From positions 1 through 50,498 of the forward strand of contig JADLHM010000030.1 in assembly GCA_020848745.1 (NCBI GenBank): 50,498 nt of DNA. The letters run 5' to 3'. The notes below the pieces were generated by a model. It was given only the letters and a program-made list of their open reading frames with translations, had not been told where the DNA came from and did no database searches. The DNA is from Deltaproteobacteria bacterium. Its GTDB lineage: Bacteria > Desulfobacterota > Binatia > UTPRO1. The position numbers were made by a program, and so were the translations under genes. The first letter of the stretch is position 1. Each line of letters starts with the position of its first letter. Positions 1 through 11,345 of this stretch are shown piece by piece.

Positions 1-569
1 AACGCACGCTCAAGTCTGGACTCACGATCGGGATGCTGGTGGCAGCGCTCGCCATGACCGGCGGCTGTGGCGACAACGACAACAGCGACAACGGCAACGA
101 CAACGGCGGTCCCGGGCCGGTGCGCACCGCGACGCCTGGTCCGGTGGCCACGCCGACCACCATCGCCGCCACCGCGACGCCGGTAACCGCGCCGACGGCC
201 ACGCCGGGCGAAACCACCACGCAGACCGTCGATTTCGACTTCACCGCCGCCAACGGCATCCAGGCCTTCCAGGTGCGGGTGGCGTACCCGACCGCGAAGG
301 GCAGCTTCACGGGCGAGGCGGATCAGGTCGCCTGCACGGTGACTGGCGGCGGCGGCATCTTCACCAAGAACGACAACGACGCGGCCGGTACGCTCACCCT
401 GAGCGTCGCCAACACGTCGAACCTGACGTTCCCGGTCAACGTCGAGTGCAGCTTCGACGCGACGTCGGCGATCACGTCGGACGACCTCACCGTGACGGTG
501 CAGGAGGTCACGCAGGACAACGGCCCGGGCAACATCGCCGACCTGACGGTCACCACGACCGTTTCGTAG
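1..569 (+). CDS. Lipoprotein with cohesin-like domain (5' end outside window)
   Basis: The reading frame is open from the first bases of the window and reads RTLKSGLTIG ahead of the first internal ATG at 33. The true start is therefore probably just outside, giving a normal positively charged, hydrophobic signal peptide that ends in the lipobox MTGGC. After the lipidated Cys there is an Asn/Asp/Gly-rich stretch and a Thr/Pro linker (about residues 40-70 of the visible part), typical of a surface tether. The remaining ~110 residues are an all-beta domain: FQVRVAYP near its start, two Cys, and alternating hydrophobic strands ending VTVQEVTQ. This resembles cohesin-type folds that bind dockerins. 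The cohesin assignment is my inference from pattern. Two other proteins here carry dockerin-like repeats. An extracellular calcium-dependent binding role is plausible but unproven. Confidence 0.7.
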   Translation, partial: RTLKSGLTIGMLVAALAMTGGCGDNDNSDNGNDNGGPGPVRTATPGPVATPTTIAATATPVTAPTATPGETTTQTVDFDFTAANGIQAFQVRVAYPTAKGSFTGEADQVACTVTGGGGIFTKNDNDAAGTLTLSVANTSNLTFPVNVECSFDATSAITSDDLTVTVQEVTQDNGPGNIADLTVTTTVS

Positions 570-597
570 GCGGCGACACCGGACGCACGAACACCCG

Positions 598-634
598 AAG
601 GGCGGCGTGAGCGATCACGCCGCCCTTCTTTTTT
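598..634 (+). terminator. Rho-independent terminator of the lipoprotein gene
   Basis: A 13-bp perfect stem (598-610 with 615-627) closes a GCGA tetraloop and is followed by CTTTTTT. It lies 29 bp after the TAG stop. There is no A-tract on its 5' side, so it should act only on plus-strand transcripts. Confidence 0.92.
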
Positions 635-702
635 GTCGCCGCGACCCCGGCTGCGGCCGGAACGGGCCCCGAACGACGGCGCGACCGGTCGCGCGGCCCG
701 GC

Positions 703-1602
703 TCAGCGCGCCGTCAGCTTGCCCGTCGCGAGGTTCAGGTCGAACACGAAGACGAAGATCACGCTGCCGCCCGACCGCAGGCCGACGATCTTCGCGAAGC
801 CGGGATCGTCGTCGCCGGTCGCGGGATTGCGGCCCGGAAACGACACCTGCACCCGCTCGAACGCCCCGGAGAAGAACGCGCCGCCGACCTCCACCTGCCC
901 GGACGCGCGCCCGCCGCTGGCACTCTCGTCGAGCGCGAGCGCGTCGTAGTCGAACTCGAAGACCGGCGACGACCCCTGGGTGCCGGACGCGGTTCCGCTG
1001 AGGGCGCGGCCGGCGGCGGTATCACTCGGCGTGAGCGTGCCGGTGAGCGAGAAGAGCCGGTCCTCGGAGAGATCGCGACACTCGAGGCCCGGCGCGAACG
1101 TACCGTCACCGAAGGCGGCGCCGCCGGAGCAGATCGTGCTCCGCACGCGACAGCCCTCGTACACGACGCCGCCCGCCTCCGGCGCCATCGTCCCGCCGTT
1201 CGGACACGGGACCGTCGCCGCTGCGGCGGCCCCGCCGCCCGCCGCGTCGAGGCCGAGCGCCACGAGGCGCGTCACCTGCGCCGACTTCTGGAGCGCCCCG
1301 AAGACCTGCGTCTCCTGCGCGTTCAACCGCGAGCAACGCAGCTGGACGTCGAGGCCCGCCGCGGTACGGAGCACGTTGACGCCGTCGGTGACCGTGATGC
1401 CGCCGCTGCCGTCGACGTCGCACTCGACCGGGGGACAGGGGGCGTCGATCCCGGCGGCGGCCCGCAGCACCTGCACACCGTCGCTCACCGAAACGTCGCC
1501 GCCGCCGTCCGCGTCGCCGCACGTCTCGGCGCGGACCGGTGAGTCGAGCGTCGCGCCCAAGATCGCCGCCGCCACGACGGCCTGCGCGACCCGTACCCAC
1601 AT
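703..1602 (-). CDS. Secreted protein with N-terminal dockerin-like repeats
   Basis: This 299-aa product begins with a clear signal peptide (MWVRVAQAVVAAAILG...SPVRA). Directly after it are two tandem calcium-loop repeats, DADGGGDVSVSD and DVDGSGGITVTD, each followed by GVQVLRAAAG or GVNVLRTAAG. They match the dockerin loop Dx[DN]x[DS]Gxxxxx[D] and are separated by a Cys-containing linker. The remaining ~210 residues (CRDLSEDRLFSLTG..., FEFDYDALALDES...) look like an extracellular beta-rich domain that I do not recognise. It starts 17 bp after the stop of the barrel gene on the same strand, so the two are probably co-transcribed. The dockerin-like module is N-terminal here and C-terminal in the protease at 10419-11345. 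Confidence 0.85.
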   Translation of the reverse strand: MWVRVAQAVVAAAILGATLDSPVRAETCGDADGGGDVSVSDGVQVLRAAAGIDAPCPPVECDVDGSGGITVTDGVNVLRTAAGLDVQLRCSRLNAQETQVFGALQKSAQVTRLVALGLDAAGGGAAAAATVPCPNGGTMAPEAGGVVYEGCRVRSTICSGGAAFGDGTFAPGLECRDLSEDRLFSLTGTLTPSDTAAGRALSGTASGTQGSSPVFEFDYDALALDESASGGRASGQVEVGGAFFSGAFERVQVSFPGRNPATGDDDPGFAKIVGLRSGGSVIFVFVFDLNLATGKLTAR

Positions 1603-1619
1603 GTCGCGACCCTACTCCA

Positions 1620-3017
1620 TCAGAACGTCATCTCGAAGCCCACCGTCGGAACGAAATCGGCGCGGAGGCCGTCCTGGTTCAACGGAACCAGGAAGTTCAC
1701 GAAGAGAATCCCGAACTCCCCGACGCCGAGACGCGTCCCGACCGCGAGATCGAGGATGTCGTTGCGCTTGATGTCGACGAAGATCGGGCGTCCCTTGAAG
1801 TTGTCGTCCTCGTTCACCGGGTCGCCGTTCTCGTCGAGGCCGTCGATCTCGCTCCTCGGCTGCGTGAGCGTCGGCTCGCCGCCGATCGTCCGGACCGCCG
1901 GGAGCCGTCCCGTATTCGGGATCCGGCTCTGGGGGCCGAACTCGCTCCGGCCGATGAAGTCCACCGTCAGCGCCATCCAGTTCGTCGCCTGCGCCGTGAG
2001 GCCCACCGCGTAGCGCGCGTCGCTGCGGTCGACCGTGTTGATGTTGAACAGCACCCCGGCCTGGGTGTGGACCTCGAGGAAGTCGAGCACGTCCTTCGAC
2101 GCCACGAGCGACGTCTGCAGGCGAGTGTCGCCCGTGCCTTGAAAGTTCTTCTTCTTTCCGGTCGGCAGCGACAGGTCGAGCAGAACCGCCATGTTGAAGG
2201 GTCGACGCAGCGGCGCGTACTTGGCGCGGAGGTGGATGTCGCCGATGCCGAGCTTGTCGTCCCGATCGGCCGAAGGATCGGTCACCGTGAACGATCCCGG
2301 AACGCCGTCCACCACCGCCGCGTGATCGCCGATGTCGGCACCGAAAAGCGCGTCGCAATCGGCGGACACGCCGAGACAGCGCGGATCCGGCAGGGTCTCG
2401 ACGAGCGAGCTACGGGCATACGTGTAGAGCACGGGAATGTCGATGTTCACGTCGAGGTTGTCGAGCACGCCGTAGGTGAAGCTGAAATCCCAGAGCTGGG
2501 TCTCGAGCTCGAGGTCCAGGCGGAGTTGATCCCCGATCAGCGCTTCCTGCGTGCCGTTGCCGTCGAGGTCCGCTTGCCGAGACGGCCCGAAGAACTCGAT
2601 GTCGCCGGTCTCCGGGACGCGCGCGACCTCGGCCTGGCTCATCAGCTTGTCGATGTCCTTGCCATTGAAGGACTGGAACCGGATGTAGCTGTACGAAGCG
2701 CTGAGGTTGAACTTGTTGCGCCCGAGCGTCACGGCGCGCTCGGTGAAGAGCGGGCCGAAGGTCTTCGCGGAGCGCTCCAGCACCTCGAGCTCCGGATTCC
2801 ACTCGTAGGTGTAGCCGGCGGACGTCGAGAGCGTCGGAATCTGATTCGCGACCTGGGTCGAGATGGCCGTCGACAGCGGATTGATGGCGGCTTCGAGGAA
2901 CGTTCCGCGCACCGACGGTGGAACGAGGGCACGTTGCAGGGTCCGGGCGGCCGCGGACGTCGTCGATCCCACCATCCCCACCACCGCAAACGCCGCCACC
3001 GAGAACGCAAACCGCAT
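1620..3017 (-). CDS. Outer-membrane beta-barrel protein (MetA-pathway/transporter-like)
   Basis: A 465-aa exported protein. I chose the ATG at 3017 because it follows GGAGGGGG and opens a signal peptide (MRFAFSVAAFAVVGMVGS). The frame stays open far upstream, but that part is Arg-rich without coding character. From about residue 60 onward there are repeated amphipathic strands (KFNLSASYSYIRF, FSFTYGVLDNLDVNIDIPVLY, GIGDIHLRAKYAP, MAVLLDLSLPTGKK, THTQAGVLFNIN-type segments), and it ends in Phe (VGFEMTF), the C-terminal residue usual for outer-membrane barrels. This resembles the putative outer-membrane family annotated as the MetA pathway of phenol degradation; the substrate is unknown. It is followed by the dockerin-like gene in the same direction. 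Confidence 0.82.
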   Translation of the reverse strand: MRFAFSVAAFAVVGMVGSTTSAAARTLQRALVPPSVRGTFLEAAINPLSTAISTQVANQIPTLSTSAGYTYEWNPELEVLERSAKTFGPLFTERAVTLGRNKFNLSASYSYIRFQSFNGKDIDKLMSQAEVARVPETGDIEFFGPSRQADLDGNGTQEALIGDQLRLDLELETQLWDFSFTYGVLDNLDVNIDIPVLYTYARSSLVETLPDPRCLGVSADCDALFGADIGDHAAVVDGVPGSFTVTDPSADRDDKLGIGDIHLRAKYAPLRRPFNMAVLLDLSLPTGKKKNFQGTGDTRLQTSLVASKDVLDFLEVHTQAGVLFNINTVDRSDARYAVGLTAQATNWMALTVDFIGRSEFGPQSRIPNTGRLPAVRTIGGEPTLTQPRSEIDGLDENGDPVNEDDNFKGRPIFVDIKRNDILDLAVGTRLGVGEFGILFVNFLVPLNQDGLRADFVPTVGFEMTF

Positions 3018-3533
3018 GATCCACCCCCTCCGCTGTGCGACAGAGCCGCGATCAGCGATCTTTCTAGGCCCGTGCGGCGATACCAAAGCTGAAAGCGCGA
3101 GGTCAAGCGAGCGGGAACGCGAGCGGGAACGCGGGGGAAGACGCTCGCGGCGACGCGCGCGCACATCTCGGCGGCGCCGTCGAGATCGGCGCGGCTGAAG
3201 CCGTCGCGATCGGGACGGACCGGCGCGTCGATGAGCGGCGGGCTCCGCGCGCCGGGCTCCCGGCTCGCACGCGCCATCGCCCGCCACCGCGGCCGCGAAG
3301 ATCGGCACCGGCATGCGCTCGATCGTCACGCCGCCGCGGCACTGCCCGAAGAGCCCGCTCCTGGCGAGAAAGGCGCAGAGGTCTCCCCTGGGACGCTCGC
3401 GCGTACGGCGCGAGCCGCAGCGATCCCCCGCTCCGACGGTCAAGGCGCGTGTCGTGGCGCATGTGCCATGCGTTCCGGAGCCGTTCCGCGGTTGTAAACC
3501 CTCGGCTTTCCTTGCTACCTTCGTCGACGCTGC
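3018..3533. other. Intergenic region with possible decayed coding remnants
   Basis: These 516 bp separate the divergent barrel gene and the phosphatase operon. Short stretches on the minus strand read like protein (for example LCAFLARSGLFGQCRGG near 3370 and DGFSRADLDGAAEMCARVA near 3190). They lie in different frames with no start or ribosome site, so at most this is a degraded gene. A 12-bp tandem duplication (GAGCGGGAACGC twice) lies at 3109-3132. No confident gene is seen. Confidence 0.35.
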
Positions 3534-4280
3534 ATGAAGATCAGGGGGGCAGCGCGCACGGATCCGGGTCGGGTGCGCCGCGAGAATCAGGACAACTTCG
3601 GGCTCGCCACGGACCTCGGCCTCGGTTTCGTCGCCGACGGCATGGGCGGTCATGCCGGCGGCAGGCGAGCCAGCGAAGAAGCGGCGCGGGTGATCACGGA
3701 ATCGCTCGCCGCGGGCGCGCCCGGCGGCATGGACGGAGGCGTGCGCCTCCGCCGGGCGATCGAGGAAGCGAACCGGCGGGTGTGGACGGTGCCGCAGTTC
3801 GAGCCCGCGCTGCACGGCCTCGGCACGACGGTCGCGGCGGTGCTCATCGAGGGCGACGTCGGTCACATCGCGCACGTCGGCGACTCGCGCGTCTACGGCA
3901 TCCGCGACGGCACCATCGAGGCCCTGACCCGCGACCACTCCTATTTGAACGACCTCGCCGCCCGCGGCGTCGAGCTCACCGACCCCGCGCTGCGCGCGCG
4001 CTACGAGAGCGTGCTCACGCGCGCGATCGGCGTCGCCCCGACGGTCGACGTCGAAGTGGCCGCGCGGCCGGTCGCGCCCGGGGACACGTTCCTCCTCTGC
4101 TCCGACGGCGTCTACCGCGTGCTCTCCTCCGAGCAGCTCGCGATCATCGTAGAGGAAGGCGGCGAGGATCTCGACCGCATCTGCGCCACCATCATCACGC
4201 GCGCGAACGACGGCGGCGGGCCGGACAACTCCACCGTCGTCGTGTTGCGCATCGACGCCGACGACGCGGGCGCCCCGTGA
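3534..4280 (+). CDS. PP2C-family (Stp1-type) Ser/Thr protein phosphatase
   Basis: A 248-aa soluble protein covering one complete bacterial PP2C catalytic domain. Metal-binding motifs are visible in order: RRENQDN near residue 20, VADGMGGHAGG near 35-45, HVGDSRVYGIRDG near 115, LLCSDGVYRVL near 190 and GPDNSTVVVLRI near the end. Such enzymes dephosphorylate Ser/Thr kinases of the PknB type and their substrates using Mn/Mg. The stop codon overlaps the GTG start of the kinase gene by 4 bp, so phosphatase and kinase should be translationally coupled as a signalling pair. No Shine-Dalgarno is evident before the ATG and only a weak promoter-like stretch lies upstream, so the 5' leader may be very short. 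Confidence 0.95.
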   Translation: MKIRGAARTDPGRVRRENQDNFGLATDLGLGFVADGMGGHAGGRRASEEAARVITESLAAGAPGGMDGGVRLRRAIEEANRRVWTVPQFEPALHGLGTTVAAVLIEGDVGHIAHVGDSRVYGIRDGTIEALTRDHSYLNDLAARGVELTDPALRARYESVLTRAIGVAPTVDVEVAARPVAPGDTFLLCSDGVYRVLSSEQLAIIVEEGGEDLDRICATIITRANDGGGPDNSTVVVLRIDADDAGAP

Positions 4281-7200
4281 AGATCTCCGCGCGCTACGAG
4301 GTGCTCGGCCTGCTCGGCCAAGGCGGCATGGGCGTGGTGTATCACGTCCGCGACACGACCCGCGGCCGCGAGAACGCGCTCAAGACCCTCGCGCCCGGGC
4401 GCTCGGAGGACATCGTCGAGCGCTTCCTGACCGAAGCGCAGCTGATGTTCCGCCTGGAGCACGACAACATCGTCCGCGTCTACGATTTCGGGAAGGACGG
4501 CGAGACCTACTTCCTCACGATGGAGCTCATCCGCGGGAAGAACCTGCGGCAGCTGCTGAACGCGCGGCAGAACAAGGGCTTCCCGCTCGCGGAAGTGATC
4601 CGCATGGGCATCCAGGCGGCCGACGCGTTGAACTACGCGCACAGCCAGAAGCCCGAAGCCGTCGTCCATCGCGACATCAAGCCGGTCAACATCATGATCG
4701 AGGAGGAGACCGGCCGCGTCGTCGTCACGGACTTCGGCATCGCGAAGCTCATGGCCGACGCCGGCGGCGGCGAGACCCAGATCGGGAACGCCCCGACGCA
4801 CACGGTGTTCGCCGGCACCGTCCCCTACTCCGCGCCCGAGCAGTTCCTCGCCGCCGGCGGCGGACGCCGCCTCGACGCGCGCGTCGACATCTACGCGCTC
4901 GGCATCGTCCTCTACGAGATCTACACCGGCCGCCACTTCTTCGCAGGGCTCTCCGCCGAGGAGGTCGAGCAGCACCACCGTTCGATCGAGAGCGGCGCGT
5001 GTCCGGTCACGCGGGCCCATGCCTGCGACCACAAGATCACCAACCTCCCCGACACGCCGCCCGCCGTCATCCGGGTCCTCGAGAAGGCGATCGCCCGCGA
5101 TCGCCACGAGCGCTACAAGACCGCCGCCGAGCTGCTCGCCGACCTCCAGGCCTGCGCGGCGGTCGAATCGGTCCAGGCCGTCGTCACGGCGCGCGAGGCC
5201 GCCGAAGCCGCCGGCGCTCTCGACGCCTCTCCCACCGACTTCCGGCGCGGCGGCGAGCTCGAGCAGGAGGCCAAGGCGGCCCAGGAGCGCGGCGACCACG
5301 CGAAAGCCGGCGAGCTCTACCGGAACGCCCTCCAGGCCTACGGCGTCGCGTCGTCCCAGGCGAACGAGCGTCGCGCGCAACGAGCCGCGCAGCAGGCCAA
5401 GACCGCCATGCAGATCGTCGCGCAGGAGGCGACCGAACGCGACATCGCGGCGCTCGCCCCCGACGCGATGAAGCAGGCGGCGCAGCTCGTAGCGGCAGCC
5501 GAGGCGAGCGCGGCGCAGGGGCAGCACGAACAGGCGACCGCGCAGTTCCGCCAGGCCGAGGAAGCCTTCCGCGCCGCCCTCGCCACGGCGCGACAGGCGA
5601 GCGCCCGCAAGGCGATCGAAGACGAGATGCCGGCGCTGCGCGCCGCGCGCGAAGCGGCCGAGCAGGCGGATGCCGCGACGCTTGCCGCCGACGCGTTCGC
5701 GGCGGCCGTCCGCGAACAGCTCCGTCTCGAAGAGGCGCTCGCCGCGGGCGAGCTCACGCGCGTCCGCGAGCTCCTGCCGAAGGTCCGCGATGGATTCGCG
5801 AGCGCCGGCGAGGAAGCGAACCGCCGCCTCCATCAGAGCGTCGACGAGGCGCGCGCCGCCATGCGCGCCGCCGCCGCCGAAGCGGGCGCCGCGGGCGCGG
5901 CGAAGAGCGCGAAGGCGGCGTGCATCGAGGCGGAAGCCCTCGCGGGCGCGGCGGAGAAGCTGGTCGAGCGGGGACAGCTCGAGCTCGCCGTCGCGCAGCT
6001 CGGACGAGCGACCGACGCCTATCGCGCGGCGACGGCCGCGGCCGTCCGCGCCGGCGAGCGCGAGATCCTCGCAGGGGAGATCCCCGCCGTCCAGGCGGCG
6101 CGCGCGCAAGCCGAGAGCGCGGGCGCCGCGACGCTCGCCGCCGACGTCTTCGGCGCGGCAGCGCGCGCGCAGACCGAGCTCGAGGCGGCGCTCGCCGCCG
6201 GCGAGCTGACACGCGTCCGTACGCTGCTACCGACGGTCGGCGAGGGCTTCGCGGCGGCGCAGCAGTCGGCGATCGCCGCTCGAGCGAGCCGCGCCGCGGT
6301 CGAGGCGCGCGCGACGATGGCCGCCGCGCGCGACGGCGCGCTCGCCGCGCGCGCGGAGCAGCTCGTCCCCGACGCGCTCACGAAGGCGCGTGCGCGCGAG
6401 GGCGACGCCGGCGCCGCGGAAGAGAAGCAGCAATGGGAGCGCGCCGCGCAGCTCTATCGCGACGCCGCGAAGGCGTTCGAGGAGGTCCGCGCCGCGGCCC
6501 TGCGGCGCGCCGAGGAAGAGCGGCTCGCGGCCGGCCGCGTCGAGGCGCGGAACGCCATGGAAGCGGCACGCGCGCGCGCGAAGAACGCGGGCGCCCGGCA
6601 ACACGCGACCGCGCTCCTCGAGGAAGCGGACGCCCTCGCGAAGCAGGCCGGCGACGCCGCGAACGACGCCGCCGGCATGGAGGCGGCGGCCGGCGACTAC
6701 GCGCGCGCGACGGAACGCTATGACGCGGCGACCACCGCGGCCGAGCGGGTCGTCCGCCGGCAAGAGCTGCAGGAGACGCTCGCCGCCGTCGAAGAGGCGA
6801 AGCGCCAGGCGCTCGATGCGGGCGCCGGACAGAATCCCGAGTTCGCCGCGGCCGCCGACGAGCTCGCCGCCGCCGAGCGGGCCCTCGCCGCCGACGAGCT
6901 GAGCCTGGTCGTGAGCTCCGCCGCGGCCGCCCGCGACCGTTTCTCCGCCGCGAAGAGCGCGGTCGAGCGCGCCAAGACGGAAGCCGCCGCGGACGCGGCG
7001 CTCGCCGACGTGGCGGCGGCCTCCGCCGAGGCGCGCGAGGCCGGCGCCGAGTCGGCGGCGGCGATGACGTGGGCCCGCGCGCTCGAACGACAGAAGGAGG
7101 CCCTCGCGCGCCGCCACGACGGCGACTGCGACGGCGTCCTGCCCCTCGCCGCGGAATCCGAGCAGGGCTTCGACGCCGCGCTCGACGAGACCGTGGGCGC

Positions 7201-9805
7201 GGCACGGGAGGCCGCGGTCGCCGCGCGCCGGGCCGCCGAGCTCGCCGGGTCCGACGACGAAGCGGCCGGCGCCGCCGAGAAGTCGTTCGCCAACGCCGAG
7301 CACCGGCGCGGCGAAGGAAAGCGCGCCGCCGCGGCGATCGCGTTCCGCAAGGCGGCCGAAGGCTACCGAGTGGCGGGCGAGGCCCGCGCGGCCGCGGCGC
7401 GCGCGGCCGAGAAAGACGCCGAGGCCGCGCGCGCCGAGGCCGACGAGGCCGCGGCGAGCGCGCATGCCGCCGACGAGCACCGCGCCGCGCTCGGTGCGCT
7501 CGAAGGCGCCGCGCGGGCCTTCGCCGCCGGCCGCTTCGCCGAGGCCGAGCGGGAGTTCCTGGAGGCGGCACGCGGACTGCGCACGGCTGCGAAGACCGCG
7601 ACCCGCGAGCAGAAGCGCGCGGGCGCGCTCGCCGCCCGCGCCGCCGCCCGCGCCGCCGGGGACGAGGCGAAAGCGGCGCGCGCCGCTGAGCTCGCCACCG
7701 CCGAGCTCGAGAAGGCCGTCGCGGCGTTCACCGCGGGCGAGCGCGCCCTCGAGGGCGAGGACTACGCGGGGAGCGCAGGTCACTTCACGAGAGCGCGTGA
7801 CGCGTTCGGCGGCGCGCGCGACGCCGCGATCCGCGCCGCCGCCGAGCGCCAGGCACGCGAGGCGCGCGCGCGCGTCGAGACGCTCCGCGCGACGCGCGCT
7901 CCCGCCGCCACCGGGTTCTTCGCCCGCCGCAAGCTCGCGAAGGCGGATGCGGCGCTCGCTCGCGGCACCGCCGCCGGCGCGAGCGGCGACTTCGCGGGCG
8001 CGGCGGCCGCATACACCGACGCCGCGCAGCTCTTCGAGGCGATGCCCGCGGCGGCGGCTCCGCCCGCCGCCGCGCCGCAGCCGGTCGCGGCCCCACCCGC
8101 CGGCAAGAAGGCCAAGCGATCCGCGCCACCCTCGGAGGCGACCTCCGTCGTCGCCGCCCCCGCGCTCGGCGAAGCGACCGCGATCGCCAGCGCGCCGGCG
8201 CGCGCAGGAGCGACCCTCGCCGCGAGCGAGGCAACGTCCCTCGCGACTCCTTCCGACGCGGCCACGCTCGTGGGACGCCAGATGCCCGCCCCGGCACCCG
8301 CGCGCGGGCTCCCGGTGGCGTGGATCGGAGCCGGCGCCGCCGGCGTCGCGCTGCTCGCCGGTGTATGGCTCATGCGGAGCGGCTCCACGGACACCACGAC
8401 GACGCCCGCGATCCCGCCGAAGGTCGCCGCGAAGACCGACGTGGAGCCGCAGAAGAAGACCGAGGTCGCGCCGCCCGCGCCCCCGCAGGAGGTCGTGCAG
8501 CAGCGCGAGCCGCCGCCGCCCGCCGCGACGGCCGCGCCCCAGCAGGTCGCCAAGGCCGAGCCTCCACCGCCGCCACCGCCCGCGCCGCGCATCGCGAGCT
8601 TCGAGCCCGCGACGACGCGCGTCGAGCCCGCGAGCGACACCCAGCCGTTTCGCATCGCTCTCGCGGACCCGGCCGGCGCCACCTACGTCTGGTCGGTCGA
8701 CGGCAGGGTCGTGAGCGACGCGACCGCCGCCAGCGCCACGATCTCCGCCAAGGAGAAGCCGCAGCGGGTCGAGGTGACCGCGCGCACGGCGGGCGGCGAG
8801 GCGCGCCAGCAGTGGGAGCTCGCGGCGCTCTCGCCGCTCCCGCCGCCCGAGGCCCCGACCGCGCCCGTGATCAGCGGCTTCGAGCCGCGCGGCAAGACGC
8901 TGCAGCTCGCACCCGGCAAGAGCACGCGTTTCAAGGTGACCGCCAAGGGCGCCGGCGGCGCGCCGCTCCGCTACGCCTGGTCGGTCGACGAGAAGACCGC
9001 CGGCGGCAACACGCCGACCTTCGACTTCAGCGCCGCCGACGACGAAGAGGGCACGACGCACGAGGTGCGCGCCGAGGTGACGAACGGCGACGGCCCGGCG
9101 GCCCTGACCGCATGGACGGTCACGGTGCCGAACGCGCCGGTCACCATCACCCGCCACGTCCCGGCGCCGGCCGAGGTCGTCGCCGACCTCGGCGACACGA
9201 CCGACTTCAGCGTCGAAGCGCGCGCGGGACGCGCCCCGGCGAGCGAGCTCTCCTACGTCTGGACCGTCAACAAGCGGGCGGCCGAAGGCGCGGCCGGCCC
9301 GCGCTTCACGTACCGCCCGGAGCATGGGGGCAGCGCCGACGTCGAGGTCCGCGTCGAGGCGCCCGACCGCACCGCCGCCGTCCGCCGCTGGACCGTGCGG
9401 GCACGCGAGCCGGAGCCCGCGGCCGTCCCGACCCAGCTCGCCGCCCTGCCGCCGCGCGCCGCCCCGACGCCGGTCGCGCCGCGCGCCGGCGGCGATCCGC
9501 GGCGGGAGCTCGAGAGCTGGATCGCCGCCTACCGCGACGCCTACCAGCAGAAGAACGTCGACCGGCTGGTCGCGCTCGGCGTGCTGAAACCCGAGAACCG
9601 CGGCAAGCTCGCCGACGCGCTGAACGACCTGAACGACCTCGAGGTGCGGATCGGCACGAGCTCGATCGACGTGCAGGGACCCGACAGCGCAGTCGTGACG
9701 CTGACGCGCGAGGACAGCTTCGACGCCGGGGGGCGACGCCAGACCCAGTCCATCAACATCAGGAAAAGCCTCCGCAAAGTGAACGGCTCGTGGGTCGCGC
9801 AATGA
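4277..9805 (+). CDS. Giant transmembrane Ser/Thr protein kinase with coiled-coil repeats and Ig-like domains
   Basis: An 1842-aa protein starting at a GTG that overlaps the phosphatase stop. The frame is open further upstream, but the kinase fold begins directly at this start. Residues 1-290 form a PknB-type kinase with glycine loop GQGGMG, Lys36, catalytic HRDIKPVN (Asp133), DFG at 152-154 and an APEQ motif. Residues ~320-1270 are extremely Ala/Glu/Arg-rich helix with duplicated segments (compare ~448-510 and ~600-660, both ending AAGELTRVR.LLP). A Pro/Ala stretch precedes a single membrane segment at ~1345-1366. Outside, a Pro-rich linker leads to three beta-sandwich, PKD/Ig-like domains with YVWSVDG, YAWSVDE and YVWTVNK. 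A last ~100-residue domain (RRELESWIAAYRDAYQQKN...) looks like an NTF2/SnoaL-type fold. It probably senses envelope signals; the ligand is unknown. Confidence 0.93.
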   Translation: MKISARYEVLGLLGQGGMGVVYHVRDTTRGRENALKTLAPGRSEDIVERFLTEAQLMFRLEHDNIVRVYDFGKDGETYFLTMELIRGKNLRQLLNARQNKGFPLAEVIRMGIQAADALNYAHSQKPEAVVHRDIKPVNIMIEEETGRVVVTDFGIAKLMADAGGGETQIGNAPTHTVFAGTVPYSAPEQFLAAGGGRRLDARVDIYALGIVLYEIYTGRHFFAGLSAEEVEQHHRSIESGACPVTRAHACDHKITNLPDTPPAVIRVLEKAIARDRHERYKTAAELLADLQACAAVESVQAVVTAREAAEAAGALDASPTDFRRGGELEQEAKAAQERGDHAKAGELYRNALQAYGVASSQANERRAQRAAQQAKTAMQIVAQEATERDIAALAPDAMKQAAQLVAAAEASAAQGQHEQATAQFRQAEEAFRAALATARQASARKAIEDEMPALRAAREAAEQADAATLAADAFAAAVREQLRLEEALAAGELTRVRELLPKVRDGFASAGEEANRRLHQSVDEARAAMRAAAAEAGAAGAAKSAKAACIEAEALAGAAEKLVERGQLELAVAQLGRATDAYRAATAAAVRAGEREILAGEIPAVQAARAQAESAGAATLAADVFGAAARAQTELEAALAAGELTRVRTLLPTVGEGFAAAQQSAIAARASRAAVEARATMAAARDGALAARAEQLVPDALTKARAREGDAGAAEEKQQWERAAQLYRDAAKAFEEVRAAALRRAEEERLAAGRVEARNAMEAARARAKNAGARQHATALLEEADALAKQAGDAANDAAGMEAAAGDYARATERYDAATTAAERVVRRQELQETLAAVEEAKRQALDAGAGQNPEFAAAADELAAAERALAADELSLVVSSAAAARDRFSAAKSAVERAKTEAAADAALADVAAASAEAREAGAESAAAMTWARALERQKEALARRHDGDCDGVLPLAAESEQGFDAALDETVGAAREAAVAARRAAELAGSDDEAAGAAEKSFANAEHRRGEGKRAAAAIAFRKAAEGYRVAGEARAAAARAAEKDAEAARAEADEAAASAHAADEHRAALGALEGAARAFAAGRFAEAEREFLEAARGLRTAAKTATREQKRAGALAARAAARAAGDEAKAARAAELATAELEKAVAAFTAGERALEGEDYAGSAGHFTRARDAFGGARDAAIRAAAERQAREARARVETLRATRAPAATGFFARRKLAKADAALARGTAAGASGDFAGAAAAYTDAAQLFEAMPAAAAPPAAAPQPVAAPPAGKKAKRSAPPSEATSVVAAPALGEATAIASAPARAGATLAASEATSLATPSDAATLVGRQMPAPAPARGLPVAWIGAGAAGVALLAGVWLMRSGSTDTTTTPAIPPKVAAKTDVEPQKKTEVAPPAPPQEVVQQREPPPPAATAAPQQVAKAEPPPPPPPAPRIASFEPATTRVEPASDTQPFRIALADPAGATYVWSVDGRVVSDATAASATISAKEKPQRVEVTARTAGGEARQQWELAALSPLPPPEAPTAPVISGFEPRGKTLQLAPGKSTRFKVTAKGAGGAPLRYAWSVDEKTAGGNTPTFDFSAADDEEGTTHEVRAEVTNGDGPAALTAWTVTVPNAPVTITRHVPAPAEVVADLGDTTDFSVEARAGRAPASELSYVWTVNKRAAEGAAGPRFTYRPEHGGSADVEVRVEAPDRTAAVRRWTVRAREPEPAAVPTQLAALPPRAAPTPVAPRAGGDPRRELESWIAAYRDAYQQKNVDRLVALGVLKPENRGKLADALNDLNDLEVRIGTSSIDVQGPDSAVVTLTREDSFDAGGRRQTQSINIRKSLRKVNGSWVAQ

Positions 9806-10422
9806 AACGGCGTATGTTAACGGCAGTCGGCATGGCGCGGCGAGCGGGGGGCGGCCGGGGGGCGGCGTACGCCGGGGCGGGAGCGATGCTCCTCGGCGTA
9901 GCGCTCGGGAACGCGGTCGGCGTACGGCCCGCCGACGCGACGATGGTCGCGAGCATGAGCACCGCCACGCAAGCGACCGCCGCGGACCGCATCTTCGTCG
10001 GAACCGTGGCGTCCGTCCTGAGCCGCCGGAAAGCCTCGCACCCGCGGTATTTCGAAACCGTCGTCCGCTTCACGGTCGAGGAGACGGTCGCCGGCGCCAT
10101 CCCGGCGAACGTCGAACTCGCCTACTCCGGCGGCGAGGTGGACGGCATCCGGCAACGGGTCGACGGCATGCCGGAGCTCGCGGTCGGCGAGCGCTACGTG
10201 GTGCTGCTCGAGCCCGAGCAGTCGCCGCCGCTCGCGAGCCCGTTCGTCGGCTTCAACCAGGGGCTCTACCGCGTCGTCGGCGAGAGCCGCGCGAGCGCAG
10301 TCGTCCGCGACCGCGCGGGGCACGCGCTCACGAGCGACGCCCTGCCCGCCGGCAGCCGTGGCGCTGGCGGCGATCCCGCGCTCGACGCCTTCCTCGACAC
10401 CCTGCGGGCCGCTCGCAAGTGA
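9802..10422 (+). CDS. Exported protein of a family found beside matrixin proteases
   Basis: A 206-aa product whose ATG overlaps the kinase stop (ATGA). A signal peptide or membrane anchor covers residues ~20-45 (YAGAGAMLLGVALGNAVG). The mature part runs ATMVASMSTATQATAADRIFVGTV, then FTVEETVAGAI, GGEVDGIRQRVDGMPELAVGERYVVLLE and GLYRVV. I recognise this layout from uncharacterised exported proteins often encoded next to zinc metalloproteases in deltaproteobacteria-like genomes, but I know of no biochemical function. The next gene, a matrixin-type protease, overlaps its stop by 4 bp, which suggests joint work, for example as chaperone, inhibitor or recruiting partner. That role is inference. 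Confidence 0.82.
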   Translation: MKRRMLTAVGMARRAGGGRGAAYAGAGAMLLGVALGNAVGVRPADATMVASMSTATQATAADRIFVGTVASVLSRRKASHPRYFETVVRFTVEETVAGAIPANVELAYSGGEVDGIRQRVDGMPELAVGERYVVLLEPEQSPPLASPFVGFNQGLYRVVGESRASAVVRDRAGHALTSDALPAGSRGAGGDPALDAFLDTLRAARK

Positions 10423-11345
10423 CCGCCCTCCGCCGTCTCGGCCTCGCGATGCTCGCCTGCGCCGGCCTCGCCGCGCCGGCCGCCGCCCAGACGTGCCCCG
10501 TCGTCCCGGACGACGTCTTCGCGTTCATCAACGCCGGAAGCGACGAGTGCCCGGCGAGCCCGGAGGTCTTCTGGACGGACGCGGCCGTGCCGTACGACTG
10601 CAGCTTCTTCGCGGACGAGGCCAACGGGATCGACTGCAGCGGCGACGCGGGCACCTGCATCGCGCTCTGCAAGGACGCCGCGAACGCCTGGAACGCCGAC
10701 CTGCCGGGCCGCTTCACGTTCGTCGACGCCGACGACACGGTGACCTTCTGCGACACCGAGGACGGCAAGGTCTCGATCGGCGGCACGACGACGCTCTGCG
10801 ACGGAACCACGTACGGCAGCCGGGTGCTCGCGGTGACGCTCAGCATCTTCTTCAGCGGCGGCCCGCAAGCGGGGCAGCTGATCGACGCCAACATCACGGT
10901 CAACCAGGCCTTCCAGTTCTCGCAGCCCGGCTTCCAGGCGACGCTCGCCCACGAGCTCGGCCACGCTCTCGGGCTCTCCCACCCCGATCAGTGCGGCGAC
11001 GACTTCAACGTGCTCATGCGCTCCGCGTCCCTCTTCACGCCCCAGAGCAACTGCTTCGTGCGCGACCCGACGACCGCCGACGTCCGGGGAGCCGAGCGCA
11101 TCTACCCGGTCGTGAACCCGACGCCGACCCCGAACCCCACCCCGGGAATCTGCGGCGATGCGGATCTCAGCGGCGCGGTCACCGTCACCGACGGGGTCCA
11201 GGTGTTGCGCGCTGCGGCCGGACTCTCGAGCGACTGCACCGCCGCGCGCTGCGACGTCGACTCCAGCGGCGCCATCACGGTCACCGACGGCGTGAACGTG
11301 CTGCGCAACGCCGCCGGGCTCTCGTCGATTTCGACCTGCCCCTGA
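10419..11345 (+). CDS. Secreted matrixin-type zinc metalloprotease with C-terminal dockerin-like module
   Basis: A 308-aa protein starting at GTG in a GTGA overlap with the previous stop. A signal peptide ends at AAAQT. The catalytic region contains the full metzincin motif HELGHALGLSH (His178, Glu179, His182, His188), followed by NVLMRSAS as the Met-turn-like segment. Several Cys pairs (FCDTEDGK, TLCDGTTY) indicate an extracytoplasmic location. A Pro/Thr linker (NPTPTPNPTPG) leads to two dockerin-like calcium loops, DADLSGAVTVTD and DVDSSGAITVTD, with GVQVLRAAAGL and GVNVLRNAAGL. The catalytic domain should cleave extracellular proteins or peptides. The dockerin-like tail may anchor it to a cohesin-type partner such as the lipoprotein at the window start. 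It is the last gene of the phosphatase-kinase operon. Confidence 0.92.
   Translation: MTALRRLGLAMLACAGLAAPAAAQTCPVVPDDVFAFINAGSDECPASPEVFWTDAAVPYDCSFFADEANGIDCSGDAGTCIALCKDAANAWNADLPGRFTFVDADDTVTFCDTEDGKVSIGGTTTLCDGTTYGSRVLAVTLSIFFSGGPQAGQLIDANITVNQAFQFSQPGFQATLAHELGHALGLSHPDQCGDDFNVLMRSASLFTPQSNCFVRDPTTADVRGAERIYPVVNPTPTPNPTPGICGDADLSGAVTVTDGVQVLRAAAGLSSDCTAARCDVDSSGAITVTDGVNVLRNAAGLSSISTCP

Follow-up and report, generated by a model that had tools for sequence, protein, structure and literature searches.

A candidate non-cellulosomal cohesin–dockerin docking system with a lipoprotein-borne cohesin in the class Binatia

Comparison with known cohesin–dockerin systems

To our knowledge, cohesin–dockerin pairs are known nearly exclusively from cellulosomes. 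Stray non-cellulosomal cohesins and dockerins have been catalogued as well, mostly without a clear partner or function. The closest cellulosomal system is the type I pair, for example that of C. thermocellum (CipA/Xyn10B, 1ohz), whereas cohesins of Archaeoglobus (2xdh) and C. perfringens (2vo8/2jh2) represent the non-cellulosomal type. That both modules occur outside cellulosomes was thus already known (review of Peer et al., 2009, as named in PMC8542988). In addition, a cellulosome-like scaffoldin complex with peptidases has been inferred from MAGs of Candidatus Stygibacter (Cloacimonadota) (PMC8542988).

Here, we analyzed a stretch of 50,498 nucleotides (the window, contig JADLHM010000030.1) from a genome of the class Binatia, order UTPRO1, which is one of seven orders in the phylum Binatota (PMC8262859). 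The genome comprises 4.88 Mb in 155 contigs and is 99.5% complete. On the basis of fold, homology, co-occurrence, synteny and anchor exchange, we consider it likely that a small lipoprotein at the start of the window and the dockerin-like proteins encoded around it belong to a non-cellulosomal docking system of the class Binatia, in which cohesin and dockerin would bind in a Ca2+-dependent manner.

Several features of this candidate system resemble the cellulosomal type I pair, namely the cohesin fold predicted for the lipoprotein domain (Z 8.5 against 1ohz_A), the two Ca loops, in which the recognition positions are duplicated, and the presence of dockerins on enzymes. However, a single-cohesin lipoprotein is found here instead of a scaffoldin with a CBM, the dockerins contain four Cys, the cargo does not consist of glycoside hydrolases, and both modules fall under the Pfam cut-offs in this genome. 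The lack of a cellulosome is shared with Archaeoglobus and C. perfringens, whose cohesins were among the closest structural matches; in contrast to those cases, the genome studied here, from a Gram-negative class, has many dockerin proteins, clustered about a cohesin that is carried by a lipoprotein. Candidatus Stygibacter is also an uncultured Gram-negative lineage in which peptidases with C-terminal dockerins were placed at the envelope, as inferred from MAGs, but its scaffoldin is a multi-cohesin/CBM protein of 3,755 aa with a CTD for surface attachment (PMC8542988), whereas the lipoprotein described here has 190 aa and one divergent cohesin. Our literature search found no report linking Binatota or Binatia to dockerins, and neither cohesin nor dockerin is named in the Binatota genome paper (PMC8262859). 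What is new here is the divergent family of cohesins, the placing of such a cohesin on a lipoprotein, the cargo and the exchange between dockerin and lipobox.

A divergent cohesin-like domain on a small lipoprotein

The cohesin-like lipoprotein gene occupies positions 1–569 of the plus strand (ORF 3–569). This ORF is real and matches the lipoprotein with a cohesin-like beta domain of the original prediction. Its 5' end lies on another contig of the same genome (C145), which contributes the Shine-Dalgarno sequence and the ATG (ribosome-binding site GGAGGAGG). Window bases 1–97 are the exact end of this contig (13856–13952), and the assembly of a genome of the same genus (G308) stops at the identical base, likewise with an overlap of these 97 bases; the contig edge thus reflects a break of the assembly graph within the lipoprotein gene. 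The joined protein has 190 aa and the N-terminus MKRTLKSGLTIGMLVAALAMTGGC. Its signal peptide ends in a lipobox of the PS51257 pattern, read as MKRTLKSGLTIGMLVAALAMTGG^C, with the lipobox Cys at 66–68 and Gly at +2, and is followed by a Thr/Pro-rich linker (about 114–212) and a C-terminal cohesin-like domain of 118 aa (213–566), all on the plus strand. In E. coli, a lipoprotein with Gly at +2 is sorted to the outer membrane, and by analogy the same rule would locate the window lipoprotein in the outer membrane of Binatia. With regard to the face of this membrane, the proteases among the cargo suggest an outward orientation; the imelysin/DHOR pair discussed below could be compatible with the outer or the periplasmic face alike.

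The identification of the domain as a cohesin was supported by both its predicted fold and profile homology. The AlphaFold model, calculated from a two-sequence alignment, contained eight strands (pLDDT 74.7, pTM 0.68). The original prediction had named a domain without cohesin fold as its refutation, and the model did not refute it: the 37 best matches in VIA-align were all cohesins (Z 8.7–6.5; first non-cohesin Z 6.5), including type I cellulosomal as well as non-cellulosomal C. perfringens and Archaeoglobus cohesins. Foldseek also matched the model to the non-cellulosomal Archaeoglobus cohesin 2xdh (prob 1.0, E 0.028), with E-values that were weak. We further compared an alignment of the 59-domain family to which the lipoprotein belongs (A4) with 14 Pfam-detected Binatia cohesins (A5). 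The hhalign probability was 95.4 (score 48.9), whereas the reversed control reached 19.0 and 60 column shuffles and 60 block shuffles gave no more than 14.2 and 29.0, respectively. The Pfam-detected set itself matched cellulosomal cohesins in PDB (E 3e-16), and both families have in common a conserved pair of Cys, with a spacing of 38 residues in the first sequence of each alignment.

The family is too divergent for standard databases. Pfam and NCBIfam assigned the lipoprotein to no family and returned only a sub-threshold chance match; the Pfam Cohesin model (PF00963) had no match over its curated cut-off in the window's genome and matched no single one of the 59 family members; and the profile of these members found no chain in PDB. 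A third line of support for cohesin identity came from paralogues and a natural fusion, as four cohesin-like domains could be identified in the genome: that of the window lipoprotein, those of a secreted paralogue without lipobox (C52) and a second lipoprotein (C72), and one in a fusion in which a dockerin precedes the cohesin (L003, on C56).

Dockerin-like modules, their cargo and their neighbourhood

Two secreted proteins of the window carry dockerin-like modules located by module profile search. One of them (703–1602, minus strand) has a type-I signal peptide, directly followed by a two-loop module (1330–1521, minus strand) and a beta-rich C-terminal domain without Pfam match. The other (10419–11345, plus strand) is a matrixin metalloprotease with the zinc site HELGHALGLSH at about 10950–10982 and a C-terminal module at 11151–11342 on the same strand. 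Only weak metzincin matches were obtained for the matrixin with Pfam and NCBIfam, and the predicted-structure model of the full-length protein had a pLDDT of 35. Both ORFs and both modules lie where the original prediction had put them, although its description of the modules as textbook dockerins was too strong: the Dockerin_1 model (PF00404) scored 12.5 bits on the matrixin against a cut-off of 22.9 bits, and no match over the cut-off was present in the window's genome. In relatives, the module profile and PF00404 over its cut-off found the same loci (for example, G018:C43:243180, G174:C38:36413, G312:C86:15299, G345:C38:37725 and G369:C1623:4283), and thus the modules of the window are considered divergent members of the dockerin family. 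Searching PDB with the module profile (A1) gave repeat-protein artefacts as the leading matches (Pizza designs, with summed tiny matches), and true dockerins were found lower (E 0.01–0.4).

The count of both module types proposed in the original prediction yielded 16 four-Cys dockerin-like modules (E 6e-35 to 5e-13) next to the four cohesin-like domains. A chance EF-hand resemblance was rejected in view of these 16 copies, their E-values and their conserved Cys and Asp. The consensus of the 16 modules is C-G-D-x-D-x-S-G-x-V-T-V-T-D-G-V-x-V-L-R-x-A-A-G-L ... C ... C-D-V-D-G-S-G-x-V-T-V-T-D-G-V-N-V-L-R-x-A-A-G-L ... C, in which the four Cys are conserved, although in the alignment one copy lacks the fourth. 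A lipobox role was rejected for the Cys that precedes loop 1, since T, V, I or L stands at −1 in the copies read. Asp occupies Ca-loop positions 1 and 12 in all 32 loops, V-[ST] is found at positions 10/11 in 31 and L-R at positions 17/18 in 30 of them (repeat 2 of L008 having been read by hand from the alignment). In clostridial dockerins, these two pairs of positions serve for recognition, and 2ccl, which appeared in the structural comparison of the cohesin model, is an S45A/T46A mutant of that kind. The identity between repeats was 62% within a module and 63–66% between modules, in a script count that mis-parsed repeat 2 of L008. Such near-identical repeats fit a duplicated binding face that may work in dual mode, and the four conserved Cys would allow each module to be braced by two disulfides.

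The dockerin is mostly located at one end of the cargo proteins, which elsewhere in the genome include a subtilase, a glucose/sorbosone dehydrogenase (GSDH), a di-haem oxidoreductase (DHOR), an imelysin and beta-propellers, next to proteins of no recognized family. Behind the N-terminal dockerins of the 703–1602 protein and of L002, L007, L008, L011, L098 and L122, we observed a C-terminal domain that is rich in beta structure, has about 200 aa and gave no Pfam match; it recurs in several copies per genome and is a candidate undescribed secreted domain family. The gene of a small exported protein without Pfam match (9802–10422, plus strand) shares its last 4 bases with the start of the matrixin gene and is a likely operon partner. 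In relatives, this protein likewise seems to be encoded ahead of the matrixin, and it could be a partner or inhibitor of the protease.

Four dockerin genes, the last encoding a subtilase, lie directly upstream of the lipoprotein on C145; if the window's own two are added, 6 of the 16 dockerin genes are found around the lipoprotein within about 18 kb. The same arrangement was observed in G308. In another genome of the same genus (G321), three dockerin genes lead straight into the lipoprotein and the matrixin-dockerin gene follows about 8 kb further. The order in G303 is dockerin, dockerin, cohesin lipoprotein and then a convergent matrixin-dockerin gene, and that in G315 is GSDH-dockerin, cohesin lipoprotein and again a convergent matrixin-dockerin gene; on contig C53 of G303, the end of a GSDH-dockerin ORF lies 3 bases upstream of the lipoprotein frame. 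The matrixin–cohesin neighbourhood is kept in genera g1 and g201, where the genes in between differ. These orders, all read from related genomes, indicate that the partner genes remain linked while the filler genes change. In the window, positions 3534–9805 appear to encode a PP2C-type phosphatase, followed by a Ser/Thr kinase of great length that contains Ala-rich repeats and, outside the cytoplasm, Ig/PKD-like segments; the GC content of this stretch reaches 0.80.

Co-occurrence, anchor exchange and alternative explanations

We examined the distribution of the two modules in 145 Binatia genomes. The four-Cys module (A1) was detected in 24 genomes, cohesin type A3, to which the window lipoprotein belongs, in 17, PF00963 in 20 and PF00404 in 41. 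All 17 genomes with A3 cohesins were A1-positive (P = 6e-17), and when any cohesin was compared with any dockerin, the two occurred together in 34 genomes, whereas 9 had dockerins alone, 2 had cohesins alone and 100 had neither (P = 2e-22), although these P-values overstate independence because related genomes were counted as independent and shared ancestry was ignored. Most of the nine dockerin-only genomes had one or two modules (for part of the genomes, module counts are lower bounds); the exceptions were G351 (86% complete), with at least 10 modules, and G354 (about 1,200 contigs), with at least 14 Pfam dockerins, in both of which no cohesin was detected. Among dockerin-bearing Binatia, A3-like and PF00963 cohesins were nearly mutually exclusive, both being present only in G303 (P = 1e-4, again with related genomes treated as independent), which looks like lineage-specific replacement of one kind by another. 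Fusions of both modules in a single chain were also found, with the order dockerin–cohesin in this genome and cohesin–cohesin–dockerin in relatives (L026, L028, L050 and L080); these fusions resemble adaptor scaffoldins. Profile scans of viral contigs gave no matches to either module.

The most telling functional clue is an exchange of anchors observed in four genomes. On contig C105 of the window's genome (G000), the genes for imelysin 1, DHOR (PF06537) and imelysin 2 are adjacent in a conserved operon. In G000 and G308, both DHOR and imelysin 2 begin with a dockerin and imelysin 1 begins with a lipobox. In two genomes of another family (G335 and G348), the gene order is the same and the identity to the former proteins is 36–38% for imelysin 2 and 59–66% for imelysin 1, but DHOR begins with a lipobox and a Thr/Pro linker and imelysin 2 with a lipobox, both without dockerin. 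An EF-hand pair at that position in imelysin 1 of G348 was not counted as a dockerin, as an EF-hand fits it better than Dockerin_1 (19.2 v 22.9 bits). The presence of either a dockerin or a lipobox on syntenic orthologues means that the dockerin takes the position of the lipid anchor, and this suggests that it may substitute for the anchor in function.

The original prediction of enzyme docking on a membrane lipoprotein was supported by co-occurrence across the 145 genomes, by gene adjacency and by the exchange of dockerin and lipobox. In the mechanism that we propose, the small lipoprotein would be held by its lipidated Cys and would present one divergent cohesin on the Thr/Pro linker, while soluble cargo of many kinds (in the window, the matrixin and the beta-domain protein) would be exported by signal peptides. 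After export, the four-Cys dockerin with its two Ca loops would fold with Ca2+ and two disulfides and would then plug into the cohesin of the shared lipoprotein, presumably depending on Ca. In this way, docked proteases, dehydrogenases and haem/iron proteins could be retained at the envelope without a lipobox of their own.

It appears quite unlikely that the two modules instead have separate uses without any mutual binding. In that case, the dockerin-like module would be a cap stabilised by Ca or an aid in export, and the beta domain, despite its cohesin fold, would be a generic adhesin or would bind carbohydrates. Non-interacting domains can also occur together in one chain, as the modules do in the fusions described above, and the many dockerins of G351 and G354 without a detected cohesin would fit this reading. 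However, the 34/9/2/100 co-occurrence, the operons and gene adjacency, and the occurrence of dockerin and lipobox at the same place in homologues argue against it; moreover, the near-uniform V-[ST] and L-R at positions 10/11 and 17/18 in the 16 modules would be expected with one shared partner.

A somewhat less improbable, though still doubtful, alternative is that docking is real but the main socket is another cohesin (C52, C72 or the C56 fusion) and the window lipoprotein serves other partners. As the genome has four cohesin-like domains, the 16 near-uniform modules could either use all of them in common or be split among them. On the other hand, six dockerin genes surround the window lipoprotein, and its neighbourhood with the matrixin is kept in g1 and g201 despite the changed intervening genes. 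A cellulosome or its remnant, in which glycoside hydrolases would be attached by their dockerins to a scaffoldin with several cohesins, is hardly credible. The modules are homologous to those of cellulosomes and multi-cohesin proteins occur in relatives of family f2, but the cohesin proteins identified in this genome have only one cohesin each, those that were scanned gave no match to a Pfam cellulose-binding module, and no glycoside hydrolase was recognized among the 16 dockerin proteins. Cellulosome membership was therefore rejected, as neither a multi-cohesin scaffoldin nor a dockerin-borne glycoside hydrolase was found in the genome.

Returning to docking on the lipoprotein, the locus offers a compact and testable candidate pair in an uncultured Gram-negative class, and its four-Cys dockerins, if indeed braced by disulfides, might be of use as compact tags. 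Since the cohesin family lies under database detection, such systems may be overlooked elsewhere. The iron/redox and proteolytic cargo points to general enzyme anchoring. In a broader interpretation, for which we see about as much reason for doubt as for confidence, the Binatia dockerin would be an interchangeable substitute for a lipid anchor, such that exported proteins, redox enzymes and proteases among them, could switch in evolution between a lipobox of their own and a dockerin for shared cohesin lipoproteins, and this database-unknown cohesin family would serve general envelope docking unrelated to polysaccharide breakdown.
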